IMG/VR virus record: IMGVR_UViG_3300036799_000025
Span: 1 to 59,099 of that record
Strand: one strand, 5' to 3'
Source of the DNA: a virus
Length of the DNA stretch: 59,099 bases
A program made the position numbers and the translations under genes. This document shows, piece after piece, positions 34,895 through 57,573 of the stretch. Every line of letters begins with the position of its first letter. Within the stretch, counting starts at the first letter, position 1. A model generated the notes under the pieces. That model worked only from the letters and a program-made list of their open reading frames with translations. It did not search any database and had not been told where the DNA came from.

Positions 34895-35803
34895 TCAGAC
34901 TTCCATCGACTGAATCGCCCAAAAGTCGTCTGCGTTCCGATAGCCGCGCGCGCAGAGCCAATTCATGAGGATATACACGTCACCTTTGTCGCCGAAGCCT
35001 TCGCTCCACGAGCCGCGCGTGAGACCCCACTCACGACGATCTCTCGGCACGCGCCACGACAGCGTCTCGTACCCGAAGAGATAGGTGCAGTGCCCGCCAC
35101 GCAGCGGCGCATTCGCAGGCGGCTCGTGCATCACGCCGTCGCTGCCGACATTCTCATACGCGTCGTACACTGAGAAGCCGAAGACGACCGGCGTGCGCGC
35201 TGCGAGCGCAGCCTTCACGTGCGTCTGCACGCCGTTGTTATCGATCGTCGCGTACGTTAGCGCCTGATGCTTGATCGCTTCGTCATACGCGCTCTGCGGC
35301 GGCTTCTCAGTGAAACGCGCAATGTTGTACGGCCAGAGCGTCTCAGGCGCGACGCCGAGCTTCGCGACAGACTTGATGCCGTCTCGAATGAACGCGCCTG
35401 CGTCGTCATTGATCGAGCCTTCCATCGCGCGCTCGTTATAGTAGATCTGCAGGCGGCTCATGAGCGTGCGCACAGCGCCGATGCCCATGCGGTTGTAGCA
35501 CTCTTCGACGACGGCTGCGATGCCGTTGCCAGTGCACGAGCCGAGCGCGCCTTGATCCTTTGCAGGACTCAGTGTGCCATCTTCACGCAGATCGACCTTC
35601 GACGGCAGCTTTGTGAGCGACGGCGCTTTGACGCCGCGAAACTTCGCTGCCTTCTTTGGGTCGAAGACGAAGTCGTTATGATCGGCAGGCTCAGGCTCCC
35701 AGCCTGCGAAGCGCCCACTCGGCAAGATGTGACGCGCCGACTTTGTGATCGACTCGATCGAGATGACGTCGCGCGCTTGCGCGGCCTTGCGAGCAGGTGT
35801 CAC
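34895..35803 (-). CDS. Papain-like (C1) cysteine protease homologue
   Basis: Catalytic Cys motif KDQGALGSCTGNGIAAVVEE (Cys90 from the GTG start) and preceding LPSKVDLREDG are classic for bacterial and phage C1 peptidases. The His motif is GGHCTYLFGYE (His238). The usual N-S-W-G motif reads RGSWSEGFGDKG (Gly264-Ser265-Trp266), so the Asn that orients His is replaced by Gly. Start GTG 35803 is inferred: the frame is open further upstream but there overlaps the DUF1508 gene. No signal peptide. Active enzyme, weak enzyme or binding protein remain open. Confidence 0.8.
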   Translation of the reverse strand: MTPARKAAQARDVISIESITKSARHILPSGRFAGWEPEPADHNDFVFDPKKAAKFRGVKAPSLTKLPSKVDLREDGTLSPAKDQGALGSCTGNGIAAVVEECYNRMGIGAVRTLMSRLQIYYNERAMEGSINDDAGAFIRDGIKSVAKLGVAPETLWPYNIARFTEKPPQSAYDEAIKHQALTYATIDNNGVQTHVKAALAARTPVVFGFSVYDAYENVGSDGVMHEPPANAPLRGGHCTYLFGYETLSWRVPRDRREWGLTRGSWSEGFGDKGDVYILMNWLCARGYRNADDFWAIQSMEV

Positions 35804-35840
35804 TGAGACGTGCCCTCGGTTGGAGATGAGCGAAGCGTCA

Positions 35841-36113
35841 TCAGGCGTCGACGACGAGTAGATCGCTAGAGCCGACCGCTTCGAGAATCGCGCCAAGCGC
35901 ACGCTTGACGCCGTGCTTCCGCGTGTACGACTCGCCTGAGTCTGCGAGGATCTTGCCGTTACGACTGACGAGACGCCAGCGCCAGCCTGTGCGCACGTTG
36001 CTCGCGTCCTGATAGATCTCGAAGCGCGGCTTCTGTACGCGCAGCGACGCTGCGCGCCTGCGTCGCGTGACACGCACGCCGTTCAGCTCAGCGCCGACTG
36101 CGTAGCGCGTCAT
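35841..36113 (-). CDS. DUF1508 (YegP-like) protein
   Basis: Residues about 29-90 carry FEIYQDASNVRTGWRWRLVS and NGKILADSGESYTRKHG, the repeat unit of DUF1508 (one copy, preceded by a basic linker RRRRAASLR). The domain is a small beta-alpha fold found in bacterial and phage proteins with unknown activity. The ATG overlaps the upstream stop by 4 nt. Confidence 0.8.
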   Translation of the reverse strand: MTRYAVGAELNGVRVTRRRRAASLRVQKPRFEIYQDASNVRTGWRWRLVSRNGKILADSGESYTRKHGVKRALGAILEAVGSSDLLVVDA

Positions 36114-43276: not shown

Positions 43277-44140
43277 TCAGTCCGTTGCCCGTGTGACGAG
43301 CGTCATGCCGTACTCGTCGATCGGCTGCTCGAAGATGGCTGGATCAATGTCTGTGCGTCGACGCAAACGATTGCGTTTGAACGGTCGATAATCGACGTGA
43401 TGCTGCCAGCGACCAAACTTGCGCGAGACACGCACGACGTCAGGATGCTTTGCTGCTAGCTCCTGCGCCATTGCCAGCCGACCGTCAAACTCAGTGCCGT
43501 CCGGGTTGAGCTTCTTTACATAGTGCGGCGTATTGCCGCCGTTCAGCGTCATCGTCACAGCCTTGCCGATGAGGAAGGTATTAAAGAGCACAGTGCAGTA
43601 GCCGTCTTTCAGGAAGCGCAGCGCGAGATCTGTGTCGTCATTGTAGAAACCCTCGAAGCGATGCGGCACGCGGTTGTCGAGCAAATAGCACGAGTACACG
43701 CGCGTGTTGAGAATGAATGGCGGGATCACGTCACGATGCTTCGCAAAATATTTGTAATTCGGTCCTGCCATTGGCACGTTCTCATAACGATCGACGAAGT
43801 CTTCCATCGCGCGCAGCGTGCCGCTGCTGTGCACGCGCAAGATCAGATTGCGATTGAATCGCAAGAGCCCTCTGATGTTGTCGTCCATCTGCCAGTGACG
43901 CGCAGCGCCGCGCTCGATCGCGTGCTCCCAAATGAAATTGCGCGCAGCGACGAGCCCGCGATCACGCCACGGCAGCGTGACAATCTTGCGCGCATCGATG
44001 ACGGCTGCATATGCGTCATACTCTTGCGGCTCGACGACGATCGTGTACGGCAGCTCAAGCGCTTCGAGCGTCTTGCTCGTGAAGCGCGTGTCAGCGCGAC
44101 CTTTCGACGGGATATAGATCGGGTATCGCGGCGCGAGCAT
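43277..44140 (-). CDS. TET-associated-type glycosyltransferase (TAGT-like)
   Basis: 287 residues starting RYPIYIPSKGRADTRFTSKT ... YTIVVEPQEYDAYA, then WQMDDNI (MDDN at 85-88, the metal and nucleotide-sugar site) and FEGFYNDDTDLALR. This sequence pattern is the GT-A-like family named TET-Associated GlycosylTransferase, found in phages near base-modification enzymes. It could glycosylate a modified base. No TET/JBP oxygenase or cytosine methylase is recognisable in the genome, so the acceptor is unclear. It is 2 nt after the ParB-fold gene. Confidence 0.8.
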   Translation of the reverse strand: MLAPRYPIYIPSKGRADTRFTSKTLEALELPYTIVVEPQEYDAYAAVIDARKIVTLPWRDRGLVAARNFIWEHAIERGAARHWQMDDNIRGLLRFNRNLILRVHSSGTLRAMEDFVDRYENVPMAGPNYKYFAKHRDVIPPFILNTRVYSCYLLDNRVPHRFEGFYNDDTDLALRFLKDGYCTVLFNTFLIGKAVTMTLNGGNTPHYVKKLNPDGTEFDGRLAMAQELAAKHPDVVRVSRKFGRWQHHVDYRPFKRNRLRRRTDIDPAIFEQPIDEYGMTLVTRATD

Positions 44141-44142
44141 CG

Positions 44143-44862
44143 TTATGCATCCTCATCGTCGTCGTTCTCATCGTCGTCCTGCGCCGCCGCGTCATCGCTC
44201 TCGACATAGGTCTTGTCAGCGTGCACCTTGCGCACCTGCTCAGGATACCAAAAATAATGCGTCTTCAGCGTGATCTCGCGCCCGAGCAGCTTCGCGAAGG
44301 CTGCAATCGCCTCGTCATTCTCGAAGTGCACAGTCAAGTGATGATACGACCGCTCATCGCTGACCTGATACTCAGGCATTCCAGTCCACGTCTGCGAGTA
44401 GTCGCCTGTCAGATGCTGATAGAGCGTCGTGACGTCGTCGTCGTCATAGCCAGTGCCCTTCAGGTTGCCTTGCTCCTGCTGCGCGCGCAGATAGTCGAGC
44501 AAGAGCGCGTCGTTATAGCCGCCTAGCTCTGTGATGCGATTATCTGCCGCGACGATACGTGCGCCGGTCGCGTCATCGCAGTCAATCCACAGCACATTGA
44601 CGCGCTTCACCTTCAGACGACGCAGCGCTTCGCGCGTGCCATGCCCGCCGAGGATGCGACGCGATGACGTCTGCACGCGCACTGCGCCGTAGACGCCGTT
44701 CTCACGCATCGACTCAACGATCGCGCCGATATCGTGATCCTTCGGGTTCCCTGGCCAGTCCTGCAGCGTCTTGAGATCGACGTCTGCTTCGTACGACTGC
44801 GGCAAGAATTTGATGATCTCGCCGAGCTGCGCTGCTGCCTTCTTTGCGTCGGTCGCAGTCAT
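44143..44862 (-). CDS. ParB-N-fold protein of the DNA-modification type
   Basis: 239 residues with the ParB/Srx-like N-terminal fold: DWPGNPKDHDIGAIVESM, ILGGHGTREALRRL and ADNRITELGGYNDALLL. The C-terminal domain HHLTVHFENDEAIAAFAKLL ... HYFWYP accompanies this fold in many phage proteins near DNA modification genes. No helix-turn-helix for parS binding is visible and the C-terminus is an acidic tail. It sits between a TAGT-like glycosyltransferase and a RuvC-like nuclease. Confidence 0.8.
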   Translation of the reverse strand: MTATDAKKAAAQLGEIIKFLPQSYEADVDLKTLQDWPGNPKDHDIGAIVESMRENGVYGAVRVQTSSRRILGGHGTREALRRLKVKRVNVLWIDCDDATGARIVAADNRITELGGYNDALLLDYLRAQQEQGNLKGTGYDDDDVTTLYQHLTGDYSQTWTGMPEYQVSDERSYHHLTVHFENDEAIAAFAKLLGREITLKTHYFWYPEQVRKVHADKTYVESDDAAAQDDDENDDDEDA

Positions 44863-49483: not shown

Positions 49484-49965
49484 TAAGCAGTGCCGGTATC
49501 CTCTGGCGGGTCGAGATACACGGCGTACGTGCTCTCGTGCTCATCGTCTTCGTAGCTACTCCACTCAGCAGGCGGCAGCATCTCGTGCAGTACGCCTGCG
49601 ATGACGACACGCTGCACGCTCGTCGTGTGATTGACGATCGAGATCGTGCCGTCTGCGAGCGCCGCTGATGCGAAGCGATCGAGTGCAGGCGCGCTACAGC
49701 GCACGCAGGAGATCTTCAGCGCCTGACCGTTGCCTGTGTACGCGAGTCGATCGACGCGCCAGGCCGGATGCGTGCACGGCTCGGCAGCGGCCTGCAGCAT
49801 CTCCGCCGCATGACGCGCGCGCTCAGCGAGTGCAGCGATCTCGCGATACGTCTGCGAGAGCTGCGACGTGCGCCGCGTCATCAGGAACAACCCGAGCGCG
49901 ATGAGCATGCCTGCGAAGAGCAGCTCAGCGAGATCGCCTGAGCTGAATGCGAGATTAGTCATCAT
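49468..49965 (-). CDS. Single-TM protein with zinc motif (165 aa)
   Basis: ATG 49965 (or 49962) overlaps the upstream stop. Residues about 11-30 (LAELLFAGMLIALGLFLM) form a transmembrane helix, followed by a helical stretch, then PCTHPAWRVDRLAY ... KISCVRCSAPAL, a probable zinc site. The C-terminus is acidic. Promoter P4 begins within its last codons. Confidence 0.7.
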   Translation of the reverse strand: MMTNLAFSSGDLAELLFAGMLIALGLFLMTRRTSQLSQTYREIAALAERARHAAEMLQAAAEPCTHPAWRVDRLAYTGNGQALKISCVRCSAPALDRFASAALADGTISIVNHTTSVQRVVIAGVLHEMLPPAEWSSYEDDEHESTYAVYLDPPEDTGTAYLRKL

Positions 49966-50416
49966 CGTCGTCACTCCGGACAAGGCGTGGCATCGCGATC
50001 GTGCTCAGTGGCTGCATCGCGTTGACGCGCGCGATCGCGCGATCGAGTCGCTCGCCGCCATCGACAGCGCCGTGCAGCGAGCGATCGTGATTGTCGTCGT
50101 ACGTGAAGCCGTTCCAGAAAGGCATCTGCCCGCACGTCGTGCACTTCAGCTCAGGCAGATAGTCGAGTCCTGCCTTGCCTTGCAGCGCCTGCATGTAGCA
50201 CTGCGTTGGCTCGCGCTGTGGCGCGAAGCTGCGCGCTGCGATCACGCGATCGCGCGGGTCGACGTCGCCTGCACGCCGCGCTGCCTGCAAGCGCCTGACG
50301 TCCTGCAGCAGGCGCTGATCGCGCTCGATCTGCTCGCTCGTGCGCCCGTCAGGGATCACGTACGGCTTGACGGCGAAGCGCTTGTATCGCTCGTCGTTTG
50401 TGATCTCGTCACTCAT
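49955..50416 (-). CDS. Hypothetical zinc-ribbon protein (153 aa)
   Basis: Charged helical N-terminus (IERDQRLLQDVRRLQAARRA), then ELKCTTCGQMPFWNGFTYDD (one CxxC pair) and an acidic C-terminus (SDDDDD). Follows the replication-initiator-like gene with an 8-nt overlap; may be an accessory to replication. No family recognised. Confidence 0.7.
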   Translation of the reverse strand: MSDEITNDERYKRFAVKPYVIPDGRTSEQIERDQRLLQDVRRLQAARRAGDVDPRDRVIAARSFAPQREPTQCYMQALQGKAGLDYLPELKCTTCGQMPFWNGFTYDDNHDRSLHGAVDGGERLDRAIARVNAMQPLSTIAMPRLVRSDDDDD

Positions 50417-51524
50417 GATGCACTCCGTTGCCGTTGAGCGGTGCGTCGCCTGCCAGTATCGCCTTGTACTTCTCTGCCGTCGGGTGCGGCTCGCCTGCGC
50501 GATAGCGTTTGCTCAAGTTGGCGAAGCGCTCGACGTTGCCGCGATTGCGCAGCAAGAATTCAATGTCATCGTGCTTCGTGCCGTCTTTCTCGCCGTTGAC
50601 GTATTGATCCTTCGCTGCGCCATCGAAGGCAAAGAGTAGCTCGCCGAGATTATCGCCGTTCTCACGCAATCGCGCGACGATGACGCGCTCGCGCTTGTCG
50701 TCGACGAGCGCCTTTGGGTGATTAAACTTTGCCATCCAGTAGCCGACGACGATACCGGCGAGCAGTCGTCGCTGCTGCTCGCGCGTGATGCGTGTGCGCG
50801 TGCCCTGTGCGACTTCGTCGAGCACTTGCGCGAGCTGCGCGCGAATTGCAGGCAGCGTGCGAGGGCCGAGTACGACAGGCAGCTCAGGCGTCTTGCGTCG
50901 CGACGTCGTGACGAGCGCTGTCGAGATCTCCTGCTCGTCAGGCTCGATCGTCATCTCGAAAGCGCTAGCAGGCGCTAGCAAGTTGCTAGCAGAATCGCAT
51001 AGCTCTTGATCTTGATCTTTTGTAGTTGTAGTGGATCTAAGATCTTTACTACTAAGATCTTTACTAACTAATATGGGCAAAGTGCTAGCATCTGCTAGCA
51101 AGTTGCTAGCAGCTTCCCTATTTTCGCGAGGTTCCTGATAGCGAGTTGCTAGCAATTCGCCGCTTTCTGGCGGTTTCAAGTCTGACGCTGTGCTAGCATC
51201 TGCTAGCACTTTGCTAGCACTTTCTGCTAGCACGTTGCTAGCAGAATGCTCGATTACGCGAAAGAAGCCGCTGTCGACGAGTGCCTGCAGGTCGATCTTT
51301 GAGCGCGCTCTGAGCTGTCTCGCAATGAAGTCTGCATCGAGCGGGATCTTGTTATCGAGCTTCGCTGCAAGCAGCCAAAGCTGCATGAGATGCCCGCGTG
51401 CGAGATCAGACAGTTTCAGAAACTCGTAACTTTCGAGCAGGCGAATAAAGAGACGCACGAAGGTCGGCGCGCGATCCTTGTAGTGCAGCAGTGCGTCATA
51501 GCTCGTTGCCTCTAAGTACTTCAT
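50409..51524 (-). CDS. Replication initiator-like protein containing the putative origin
   Basis: 371 residues. The N-terminal region (YKDRAPTFVRLFIRLLESYE, then LARGHLMQLWLLAAKLDNKI) resembles the winged-helix domain at the start of phage replisome-organiser and DnaD-like proteins. The middle is low complexity because its DNA contains the GCTAGCA iterons (repeats of ASNLLADAST). The C-terminal half has a helical domain with RTRITREQQRRLLAGIVVGY. Such gene-embedded origins are known from lambda O-type initiators. No helicase loader follows. Confidence 0.7.
   Translation of the reverse strand: MKYLEATSYDALLHYKDRAPTFVRLFIRLLESYEFLKLSDLARGHLMQLWLLAAKLDNKIPLDADFIARQLRARSKIDLQALVDSGFFRVIEHSASNVLAESASKVLADASTASDLKPPESGELLATRYQEPRENREAASNLLADASTLPILVSKDLSSKDLRSTTTTKDQDQELCDSASNLLAPASAFEMTIEPDEQEISTALVTTSRRKTPELPVVLGPRTLPAIRAQLAQVLDEVAQGTRTRITREQQRRLLAGIVVGYWMAKFNHPKALVDDKRERVIVARLRENGDNLGELLFAFDGAAKDQYVNGEKDGTKHDDIEFLLRNRGNVERFANLSKRYRAGEPHPTAEKYKAILAGDAPLNGNGVHHE
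50960..51243. other. Putative replication origin: iterons and AT-rich segment
   Basis: Twelve copies of GCTAGC (mostly in TTGCTAGCA or TGCTAGCA) start at 50964, 50974, 50985, 51084, 51094, 51105, 51148, 51192, 51202, 51213, 51226 and 51237, spaced 10-13 bp within clusters. Between the first two clusters lies an AT-rich segment (51000-51080) with a repeated TAAGATCTTTACTA-like unit. Helically phased iterons next to an AT-rich unwinding segment, all inside an initiator-like gene, are the standard features of a phage origin. Confidence 0.8.
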
Positions 51525-52084
51525 CGCAGATCACCTGCGTCTTTCTTCGAGCGATACTGCTTGCGACGCGCGAGCTTGTTTTCGAGCGTGATGCGAAACG
51601 CCTGTACGTTGAGCGCGCGCCCTGCGTCAGTCAGCTCCCATACGATCGACGGCGAGCCTGCTGCTGTCGCATACTTACGTCCTGAGTCGCGCAGATACTG
51701 CAGCGTGACTAGCTCTGAGCGACGCGTACGTAGCCCGCTGTCAGTCTGTAGCGGCCACCACGCGTCACGCTCTATATGCTCGCGTCGTGAGCGATAGAGC
51801 CGAATCAGGCCTTCGTCGATCATGCCTTGCGTATTCGGCGGCGCTGTCACGCGCAGATCTGCTTCCTCTACTGAGCGGAAGCAATCGAGCACAGAAAGCT
51901 GCTTCAGTGAGATCTCGCGATGCGCGGTGCGTGCAGCAGCGTGCGACGTCGCAGGATCTGTCGAGCGCGCAGCAGCACGCAGGCGTGACGGTCGTGCTGC
52001 GCCGAAGAGATCTGCCTGCTCGATGTCACGAGCGCGCGGCAGACTCTCGCCCGTCGTCGGGCGCGTTGTCTGAGAGCGCGCCAT
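51521..52084 (-). CDS. Putative helix-turn-helix protein (187 aa)
   Basis: Contains RSTDPATSHAAARTA, a phage motif preceding a winged-helix domain (LKQLSVLDCF ... EADLRVTAPPNTQGMIDEGL ... RRSELVTLQYLRDSGRKY). The last 60 residues are beta and basic (WELTDAGRALNVQAFRI). Likely binds DNA next to the replication initiator. Coupled by a 4-nt overlap to it and by 1 nt to the Bet gene. Confidence 0.7.
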   Translation of the reverse strand: MARSQTTRPTTGESLPRARDIEQADLFGAARPSRLRAAARSTDPATSHAAARTAHREISLKQLSVLDCFRSVEEADLRVTAPPNTQGMIDEGLIRLYRSRREHIERDAWWPLQTDSGLRTRRSELVTLQYLRDSGRKYATAAGSPSIVWELTDAGRALNVQAFRITLENKLARRKQYRSKKDAGDLR

Positions 52085-53418
52085 TAGTCGCCCTCGTATG
52101 CTTCGCCGCGATCTTCGCCTGCTTCCTCCGCGAGCTGCTCTCGTGCGTCGTCTGCTGCGGTCGGGTCCTGTACAGGCGCTGCAGACTGCGGCGCTGCTGA
52201 CTCGACGCGGCGATGCGCTTCGTCACGCTCGATCTGTCTGCGCTCGACTTCCTGCTCGACGTCGCGCTTGAGCGTCTCCATTCGCTTGCGGCCTGCGTCG
52301 TCGAGTACGACCGGCAGCTTCTTGCCTGTCTTCTTGCCGTCGATGATCTCGTCGACTGTCTGCTTGCCGCTCAGTGCCTTGTCGCACCAGTCCCAGGCGC
52401 GTGCGAGCAGGTCGCCTGAGACGATGTACTCGCGCTCGATCACGCTCTTGCCGTCTGTCGTCAGCTCATTCTGATCGAGTGCTGCGCCTTTGATCGGCGC
52501 GACGCCAAAGGGAAACTTCGACGCGTAGCGCGAGACTGTGCGGCCTGCGTAGATCGCGAGCACGTTGACGACCGTAACTGGTGCGCTGCGCTCCTGCTTC
52601 ATGCCTGAGCGCTTCGTCTCACGTCGCGGCTCGCGCGTCGGCTGCTGCTTGCGCTCATCGAGCACGTCGTCATCGTCGCGATCGTTCTCAGACTGCCCCA
52701 TCTCTTCAGACGTGTAGACGCCGCTCATCTCGTTCGGGAACGCCTGACGCAGCGCGAGCGCCTCAGCGCACTTTGCGAGCTGCTCCGCGCCGCGCTTCTC
52801 CCACATCGCATTGAGACGCTTCTTATCCGTGCGCTGATCGTTCTCCCACACGTCGACCGTCTGCATGTACGCGTCGAAGCGTGCGACCGCAAAGAGCGGC
52901 TGATCGAAGTCTTTGCGCAGCACGCCGACGCGCGCAGCGTACGGCTCACGATCGCGAAACGGCCAGACAGGATACCACGTGATGACGATGCCGTGATCAG
53001 TCGGCTGCACGTCAGCCCACTCAGGCGCGATCTGTCCTGCGTACTTGTCCGTACGCTCAGCGATGAGACGCAGGCCGTCGATCGACGTCTCGAAACTGAA
53101 TTTGTCGACACTCTTGCGCAGCCTCTTGTCGTACGCGCTGCGCTTCATGAAGTAGCACTGACGCGTAAACGGGTCGAGTCGCGTGCGCTTGCATTGATAC
53201 AGGAAGAGATCTAGCTCGTCGTCGCTCGCGTCTTTCGCGATCGTGCGCTTGAGCAGCTCGATCTGATCTCTCGTAAACTCGACGCCCTGCACCGTGCGCA
53301 TCTCAGGAAGCTGCACTCTCTGCTGCTCGATGCGCACAGGCGGCGTAATCGGAAGTTTCAGCGTATCACCGTCGAGTACAGACCGCGTCGCCGTCGCGAC
53401 GTCTCGCTCTTCGTTCAT
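52084..53418 (-). CDS. Bet/RecT-type single-strand annealing protein
   Basis: 444 residues with DELDLFLYQCKRTRLDPFTR, then QCYFMKRS and FETSIDGLRLIAER, the core motifs of the phage Bet family that anneals complementary strands during recombination. A coiled-coil linker and a charged C-terminal extension follow (residues about 240-444). A hairpin terminator precedes the gene at 53450-53482. No lambda-exo or RecE partner was recognised nearby. Confidence 0.85.
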   Translation of the reverse strand: MNEERDVATATRSVLDGDTLKLPITPPVRIEQQRVQLPEMRTVQGVEFTRDQIELLKRTIAKDASDDELDLFLYQCKRTRLDPFTRQCYFMKRSAYDKRLRKSVDKFSFETSIDGLRLIAERTDKYAGQIAPEWADVQPTDHGIVITWYPVWPFRDREPYAARVGVLRKDFDQPLFAVARFDAYMQTVDVWENDQRTDKKRLNAMWEKRGAEQLAKCAEALALRQAFPNEMSGVYTSEEMGQSENDRDDDDVLDERKQQPTREPRRETKRSGMKQERSAPVTVVNVLAIYAGRTVSRYASKFPFGVAPIKGAALDQNELTTDGKSVIEREYIVSGDLLARAWDWCDKALSGKQTVDEIIDGKKTGKKLPVVLDDAGRKRMETLKRDVEQEVERRQIERDEAHRRVESAAPQSAAPVQDPTAADDAREQLAEEAGEDRGEAYEGD

Positions 53419-56292: not shown

Positions 56293-56565
56293 TTAGGTAG
56301 TAACTTGCGTCTCAAAGGTACGTGTGCGAAGAATGCGCGTAAAGGCGCGTCGTCGCAACTCCTGCAGCATTTTCAGCTCGTGCTCGTAATGCGTCAGCGA
56401 GCGCAGGTCGCTGAGATAGCAATTCTGCCAACCTGGGCGCTGCTCGCTGATCTCGCGATTCGCTCGCAGGCGATACTTGTGCGCCTGCGCGGTGCGCGTC
56501 GCTTCCCACTGATCGAGAAAGGCGACGAGCTGCTCGTCGAGCGACAGCGCCTTAATGCGCGCCAT
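56293..56565 (-). CDS. Helical hypothetical protein (90 aa)
   Basis: Start at MARIKALSLDEQL (56565), overlapping the upstream gene by 14 nt. Helical and basic (RLRANREISEQRPGWQNCYL, YEHELKMLQELRRRAFTRIL). No recognised motif. Adjacent to two DNA-binding genes. Confidence 0.7.
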   Translation of the reverse strand: MARIKALSLDEQLVAFLDQWEATRTAQAHKYRLRANREISEQRPGWQNCYLSDLRSLTHYEHELKMLQELRRRAFTRILRTRTFETQVTT

Positions 56566-57088
56566 CTTTCCACCCGACGGTGATGCCTTTCCTGCGATCA
56601 TCTGCCTTGCGCTTCGACGTCTCTGCGGCACGTCGCCCGCCGCGCTTGCGTGATGCAGCGTCAGCGTCGAGTCGCGCTAGCTCTGCGCGTGCTGCACTCA
56701 TGACGTCCTGCAGCGTCGACACGCGCTTCGCCTTCTCAGCGCGATACAGCGCGATCGCTGCAGCGCCTGCGACGTCGCTCACGCACGGCGCTCGCTTCGG
56801 CGCAAGAAAGTACAGCATCTCAGCCGTCTGCGTGTACCGGCTGCTGCGCTTCTTGATCGCGACGCCTTCGTCGACGAGCGTCGTGAGCGTCTGCGCAACG
56901 GACTGCATCGCGAGTCCTGTGCGCTCAGCGATCGCTCGCGCACTGAGCCCGACTGCGCGCTGACGATCGACGTGATCGAGATACGAGATCACGAGTGCTC
57001 TGCGCTCGTCGCGTCGCTTGCGCATCTGCTCGCGACTCCACGGCGCGTCAGCGCTGTCGTCGAGCTGAATGAGTCTACTCGTCGTCAT
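56552..57088 (-). CDS. MarR-like winged-helix protein (178 aa)
   Basis: Start at MTTSRLIQLDDSAD (57088). A winged-helix of about residues 33-95: LVISYLDHVDRQRAVGLSAR, AIAERTGLAMQSVAQTLTTL and VDEGVAIKKRSSRYT, followed by a linker and a basic C-terminus (RKRGGRRAAETSKRKADDRR). Likely binds DNA as a regulator. A candidate for the protein that binds the CTTGCGC palindromes, speculative. Confidence 0.75.
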   Translation of the reverse strand: MTTSRLIQLDDSADAPWSREQMRKRRDERRALVISYLDHVDRQRAVGLSARAIAERTGLAMQSVAQTLTTLVDEGVAIKKRSSRYTQTAEMLYFLAPKRAPCVSDVAGAAAIALYRAEKAKRVSTLQDVMSAARAELARLDADAASRKRGGRRAAETSKRKADDRRKGITVGWKDGAH

Positions 57089-57573
57089 GAGCGTCGCTCC
57101 AACACGGTGTCTGACCACGGCACTGTCACGCGATCGTCATCGTCGACGTTCGGGATCTGAAATTGACGACTGCCGATATCGAGCACTGCGCCTGCGTACA
57201 GCAGACGTGACGCCCACGACGCAAGGCCGAGCAGCGACATACGCAAGCCTTTGCGCTGCTTGTAGCGCGCGTGATCGTTACCGGCGACCATGAAGGCGAA
57301 GATCTCGCGCCTGCAAAGAATGGAGAGCCCGACGCAGATGCGCGCCTGCGCTGCCTTCGTTCCCTTGCCGCCGTAGGTCCACGCGTCAGGATCTGTCTCG
57401 TGACACGGGAGCATGTGGCCGTCTTTCGCGACGCCTTGCCACTTCTCTTTGAGATTCTCGTGCGCGTACCACGCACCGCCCTGCGGGCTGTTACGCACTG
57501 CGTCATCAGTCTGATTCTGTCGAAGCCACGGACAGCCTGCGCACGGTCGCGCGCACTTCTCGTCTGTGCTCAT
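57085..57573 (-). CDS. DUF6283-like cysteine protein (162 aa)
   Basis: Start at MSTDEKCARPCAGCPW (57573); the frame is open further upstream but there crosses the terminator hairpin. The N-terminal CARPCAGCPWLRQNQ is the signature of DUF6283, with later cysteines HMLPCHETDP and ICVGLSILCRR. The middle has LKEKWQGVAKDG. Probably an iron-sulfur or zinc cluster protein of unknown function, common in actinophages. Confidence 0.75.
   Translation of the reverse strand: MSTDEKCARPCAGCPWLRQNQTDDAVRNSPQGGAWYAHENLKEKWQGVAKDGHMLPCHETDPDAWTYGGKGTKAAQARICVGLSILCRREIFAFMVAGNDHARYKQRKGLRMSLLGLASWASRLLYAGAVLDIGSRQFQIPNVDDDDRVTVPWSDTVLERRS

Follow-up and report, generated by a model that had tools for sequence, protein, structure and literature searches.

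A probable replication origin built of short palindromic iterons within a putative phage initiator gene

The window, that is the whole stretch of DNA analysed here, is a virus record of 59,099 bases with an exact 127-bp repeat common to both ends. A minus-strand gene at 50409..51524 encodes a 371-aa putative replication initiator, recognized from the ORF and from profile matches at both ends of the protein. Residues 9–103 match phrog_26426, annotated 'replication protein' (E 3.6e-6), and residues 257–348 match phrog_16167, annotated 'replication initiation protein' (E 2.2e-4). The N-terminal domain (residues 1–100; 51225..51524, minus strand) is the putative iteron-binding domain, as it tracks palindrome type amongst relatives (see below). 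The C-terminal domain (residues 257–348; 50481..50756, minus strand) would, judging by its phrog_16167 match, be the replisome-recruiting part.

Within this gene, a whole-window motif count reveals 12 exact copies of GCTAGC, spanning 50964–51242. Iteron cluster 1 (51192..51242), directly after the N-domain code, holds five copies, starting at 51192, 51202, 51213, 51226 and 51237. It is followed by an iteron pair (51137..51153), which consists of GCTAGC at 51148 and, 11 bp away, a 13th site with one mismatch, GATAGC at 51137. Iteron clusters 2 (51084..51110; starts at 51084, 51094 and 51105) and 3 (50964..50990; starts at 50964, 50974 and 50985) hold three copies each, the latter on the far side of an AT-rich segment. 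The intervals between successive GCTAGC copies are 10, 11, 99, 10, 11, 43, 44, 10, 11, 13 and 11 bp, 7 of the 11 being 10 or 11 bp. All 12 copies are directly followed by an A, and 10 of them read TGCTAGCA. The remaining 58.8 kb contains nine copies of GCTAGC and, apart from the array, no hexamer exceeds seven copies per 284 bp anywhere in the genome.

The AT-rich segment (50998..51083) is a candidate DNA-unwinding element, with the lowest duplex stability of the genome. The A+T content is 68% at 51000–51083 compared with 38% genome-wide, and this block is the least stable duplex of the whole 59-kb sequence at 60, 80 and 100 bp alike; the 60-bp minimum is ~6.4 s.d. below the mean stability and the runner-up segment is far behind. 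A perfect 15-bp tandem repeat, CTAAGATCTTTACTA, is present within it at 51037–51066. The easily unwound segment that adjoins the iterons in a lambda-type origin is therefore found at 50998–51083. An earlier note, made from the sequence alone, had described twelve clustered GCTAGC(A) palindromes, mostly 10–11 bp apart, around an AT-rich block, and both the counts and the stability profile confirm this. GC skew has no turning point at the array; it is negative nearly throughout the window, and hence uninformative as to the origin.

As the array lies within a coding sequence, it could be viewed as coding for a low-complexity linker peptide (DASNLLADAS), expanded by slippage and kept, if at all, for the protein. 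The linker is indeed repetitive, and is disordered in the structural model (pLDDT below 50 at residues 123–125, 128–184 and 188–218). However, the sites in the window are read as Ala-Ser in seven cases and (x)-Leu-Ala in five, with alternating 10- and 11-base steps, which are not multiples of three. The third frame is never used; it would read TAG, a stop. Amongst 123 related genes, 409 copies of GCTAGC are distributed 193 to 216 between the same two frames, again with none in the third. GATATC, the corresponding word in one branch of relatives, contains no stop in any frame and is found in all three (48, 36 and 52 copies), read as Asp-Ile, Arg/Gly-Tyr-Gln and x-Ile-Ser. Different peptides are thus generated from one word, and the word is kept in relatives with unrelated linker peptides. 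Moreover, the array draws on CTA, a rare codon (23 of 586 Leu codons in sampled phage genes). When the protein was held fixed and recoded synonymously with phage codon usage, 0.49 copies of GCTAGC were expected and a maximum of five was reached in 20,000 draws, against 12 observed; with the gene's own codon usage the expectation was 1.19 and the maximum six. The peptide reading is contradicted by the frame data and was rejected, its probability being close to nil. Because the sites fall in two reading frames, it is the DNA word, not the peptide, that appears to be conserved, and no peptide constraint would explain the frame use. Selection acting on a DNA word through the codons that spell it would be expected to leave such a pattern. 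The proposal in the earlier note that the array is maintained for a function in the DNA is upheld by the two-frame use and by the excess of 12 sites over 0.49 expected.

The N-domain is modelled by AlphaFold2 with a mean pLDDT of 91.4. Foldseek comparison of this domain with the PDB gave no match with E below 1 and no confident fold, and the best structural match, 2yu3 (Z 5.1 over 74 residues, rmsd 4.0), is weak and winged-helix-like at best. The C-terminal domain is helical in the model, with moderate confidence, and residues 259–359 share 36% identity with the C-terminus of 'replication protein O' of Flyfo siphovirus Tbat2_3. The array occupies the code for the disordered linker between the two domains. 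Because of this linker, the PDB rows in the fold search with the full-length model were uninformative; in a viral structure library, PhiPLPE Gp04 was among the best matches. Ribosomal L19e proteins, the sole matches in a profile search of solved structures, were judged to be due to chance.

The window protein has no Pfam match. Like all 65 members of a diverse alignment of relatives, it matches phrog_26426 through its N-domain. Many of these 65 also match replication-initiation, O-like, primosomal or DnaD-like families, and some match PHROGs named 'O-like'. The Lambda O family (Pfam Phage_rep_O) is matched neither by the window protein nor among the Pfam matches of the 65 relatives. Phage_rep_org_N (PF09681/TIGR01714) does not match the window protein, and matches one of the 65 weakly (E 0.0063 in Pfam, 2.2e-4 in NCBIfam). 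We read this variety as a sign that C-termini have been swapped among relatives while the N-domain and array stayed.

The next gene downstream (49955..50416, minus strand; 153 aa) has no family match. In many relatives, the same slot is occupied by a primase/helicase, a DnaB-like helicase, or a DnaC-like or P-like loader. Profile searches of the window revealed no DnaB-type helicase, DnaC-like or P-like loader, primase/helicase or PolA-type polymerase, in agreement with the earlier impression that no such protein was recognizable. Two genes upstream of the initiator there is a RecT-family single-strand annealing protein (52084–53418; PF03837, E 5.1e-27). Further upstream, a 188-aa protein (56552–57118) that weakly matches plasmid RepL (PF05732, E 1.6e-5) and MarR-type regulators is another candidate DNA-binding protein with a possible role in replication or regulation. 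Elsewhere, a papain-family cysteine protease (34895–36073; PF00112, E 4.7e-11) is encoded near the terminase and portal genes. A TET-associated glycosyltransferase (43277–44140; PF20691, E 1.3e-40) adjoins a ParB-like gene (44143–44862), and these neighbours suggest DNA hypermodification in this phage.

A viral-contig scan with the window protein as single query found no relatives, a plasmid collection gave no match, and a mixed alignment (A1) offered no stretch sufficiently conserved for scanning. A direct search matched Vibrio phage phiV208 (34% identity over 109 residues), which carries three copies of TGCTAGCA in its gene. The family gathered from phiV208 comprises named phages, ~220 IMG/VR loci and 34 loci in bacterial genomes, the last including Bradyrhizobium, Variovorax, Polynucleobacter, Mesorhizobium, Planctomycetes, a Nitrospirales and a Gemmatimonadaceae. 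The N-domains of these relatives, from viruses and prophages of Proteobacteria, Planctomycetes and others, are mostly 22–46% identical to that of the window. At this level of divergence the array, its helical spacing and its place after the N-domain persist, which answers the suggestion in the earlier note that conservation of the array beside a diverging initiator be sought in related phages.

Neighbouring GCTAGC copies in relatives are spaced at 11 (110 cases), 21 (35), 32 (19), 22 (8) and 10 bp (6), and 75 of the 76 GATATC spacings of up to 60 bp are 11 bp. The density of GCTAGC in its branch is 3.98 per kb in the gene compared with 0.11 per kb in the flanks; for GATATC in the other branch the values are 3.86 and 0.09 per kb. 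In the branch of the other, neither word exceeds what synonymous recoding would give. Since a per-gene test with own codon usage is underpowered at 2–5 sites, pooled tests were used; individual relatives with 2–4 sites are not significant singly, and the strength lies in the pooled data. The in-gene iteron array of a lambda-type layout is thus present in the window and repeated across relatives. Relatives that keep the gene without the array had been named beforehand as evidence against an origin here. Such relatives do occur in a few cases: most genes keep the array, but carriers of an HNH insert (below) and 6 of 117 Tyr-type genes without one lack exact GCTAGC. Two of these six have changed to TGTACA-like or TCTAGA-like words and two have half sites only; of the others, one ORF is truncated, and in one (L258) no array is obvious.

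The earlier note had also taken the iteron to be one palindrome. The GCTAGC array is real, but the palindrome is not fixed: the array words of the family are TGCTAGCA, TGATATCA and TGTACA, i.e. at least three palindrome types. One branch of relatives uses GCTAGC and the other GATATC. All 95 of the GCTAGC genes have Tyr at residue 15, and all 22 of the GATATC genes have Phe there. Amongst genes without an HNH insert, those with Tyr15 (n=118) have a mean of 3.47 GCTAGC and 0.09 GATATC, and those with Phe15 (n=49) a mean of 0.14 and 2.76, respectively; the patterns used in gathering both sets partly fixed residue 15, but palindrome content played no part in the gathering. In a tree of the N-domain, the GATATC genes fall largely into one group, situated between GCTAGC groups, so that at least three changes of type are needed. 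The N-domain being short, support in this tree is modest, and one of the three changes (L057) depends on two sites that are themselves doubtful. Two viruses with 44% identity between their N-domains carry TGTACA arrays, with steps of ~11 bp in one and 22 bp in the other; TGTACA is not found elsewhere in these two loci. A TCTAGA-like array is present in a single case (L054). Palindrome type thus tracks the N-domain, and appears to be exchanged along with it.

This co-variation bears on whether the ParB-like protein encoded at 44143–44862 could use the array as a partition (parS-like) site. Such a protein is present, and palindromic arrays are typical of centromere sites. However, its gene is 6 kb away, some of the proteins it matches bear the name of a nuclease or methyltransferase and not that of a partition protein, and across hundreds of relatives the array tracks the initiator N-domain, its type changing with that domain. 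A partition site is very improbable on these grounds, and was rejected.

The tract that follows the array differs between the window and its relatives. In relatives it is AG-rich: the best 36-nt window on the gene strand typically contains 30–36 purines, compared with 20–25 pyrimidines in the mirror control. This tract is absent from the window, where the AT-rich block is 53% purine and, unlike in most relatives, is flanked by iterons on both sides. These departures count against the origin reading proposed below.

In six relatives, an HNH-nuclease-like domain is present in frame within the iteron linker, between the N-domain and the AG-rich tract (L026, 507–1565; L031, 3001–3978; L036, 1220–2278; L211, 2995–3885; L217, 2998–4032; L248, 3505–4473), and the initiator C-terminus is kept. 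Exact GCTAGC is absent from the gene in all six, and half sites, e.g. GCTACG and CGTAGC, are frequent instead. One possibility is that the insert acts as a homing nuclease, another that it targets origins in a manner comparable to that of Odn (PMC8263062). In a further locus (L002, 3320–4354), the Flyfo siphovirus 'replication protein O' combines the C-terminal domain of the window protein (36% identity) with a different N-domain, and its linker carries ATCCCC-type inverted repeats. This points to module exchange between initiator types.

The array is very probably an in-gene iteron origin bound by the product of its own gene, the initiator. The evidence lies in the array itself, its conservation at the DNA level, the unstable segment, the membership of the protein in initiator families and the co-variation of palindrome and N-domain, with the comparison across relatives being decisive. 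The lambda-O-like layout envisaged in the earlier note is supported by the relatives and by the matches of both gene ends to phage replication-initiation families. The best explanation is an origin with the mode of action of lambda O/ori-lambda or SPP1 gp38/oriL, although it belongs to a separate sequence family and its iterons are shorter. From the sequence we infer that dimers of the N-terminal domain would bind the palindromic TGCTAGCA iterons, which, at 10–11 bp steps, would lie on one face of the helix within each cluster. The resulting nucleoprotein complex would strain and open the adjacent AT-rich segment, and the C-terminal domain would bring in a replicative helicase, probably that of the host, via a further partner.

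Alternatively, the array may be mainly an operator, through which the protein represses or tunes its own transcription or blocks RNA polymerase, with the origin elsewhere. Binding within its own gene is compatible with autoregulation, and an initiator could do both. Yet the sites are inside the coding region, beside the least stable duplex of the genome, and 12 is a large number for an operator; in addition, relatives have initiator-type C-termini and replication genes downstream. We regard this as unlikely.

Origins inside initiator genes are already known. In lambda, the origin lies in the middle of the initiator gene, with inverted-repeat iterons beside an AT-rich unwinding segment (PMC7466680, PMC6022878), and O binds as dimers, one per repeat (PMC8508860). 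The window shares with ori-lambda the position of its candidate origin inside the initiator gene and iterons adjoining an AT-rich segment. The lambda iterons, however, are four 19-bp imperfect inverted repeats (PMC7466680), whereas those of the window are exact 6–8 bp palindromes at ~11 bp, and the window has no recognized P-like loader. In SPP1, oriL comprises repeats and an AT-rich unwinding element within gene 38, which encodes the origin-binding protein (PMC6316719). Here the likeness is one of layout (in-gene position, repeats, AT-rich element); SPP1 differs in having direct repeats, a second origin (oriR) and its own loader (gp39) and helicase (gp40). In PLE, a Vibrio satellite, the DNA-binding domain and origin co-vary in the RepA and Odn system and are exchanged together as one module (PMC8263062). 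The resemblance to the window is in the way of working; the PLE origin, by contrast, lies between genes, and a RepA_N domain is present in RepA. Pseudomonas phage MD8 is a further known case of repeats inside an O-like gene (PMC8508860).

Homologues in named phages are Iodobacter phage PhiPLPE gp04 (annotated as a DnaD-like loader or replication protein), Vibrio phage phiV208 gp43 (hypothetical) and Cylindrospermopsis phage Cr-LKS3 g53 (replication protein O), which have the same N-domain family and 3–6 in-gene copies of GCTAGC. Compared with the window, they have fewer sites and different C-termini, an AG-rich tract takes the place of the AT-rich block, and a DnaC-like, ATP-binding or replicative-helicase gene is found next to them. 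The displayed stretches of these three loci carry no iteron or origin annotation. Our literature search found no paper linking TGCTAGCA or GCTAGC to a phage origin, and others may exist beyond it. What appears to be new is the use of short palindromes at helical-turn spacing, their spread across distant phages and the exchange of the palindrome along with the N-domain.

With less assurance, we favour the view that these loci form a very large, hitherto undescribed class of phage origins with one code. A palindrome with central TA (GCTAGC, GATATC, TGTACA, perhaps TCTAGA) would be repeated every 11 bp, or a multiple thereof, in the code for the initiator linker and be followed by an AG- or AT-rich opening tract. 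The N-domain would set the palindrome type, which would have changed several times. HNH insertions would also occur in this class, the intact palindrome then being gone from the carrier's gene, as if self-cleavage were avoided.

To our knowledge, replication origins are unknown for most environmental phages. The hundreds of distant relatives with in-gene arrays provide a sequence rule for locating such start sites, and the family lets both the origin and the DNA specificity of the initiator be read from sequence in viruses of a wide range of bacterial phyla. Its members could also serve as a natural series for studying how an initiator and its iterons change specificity jointly under codon constraint.
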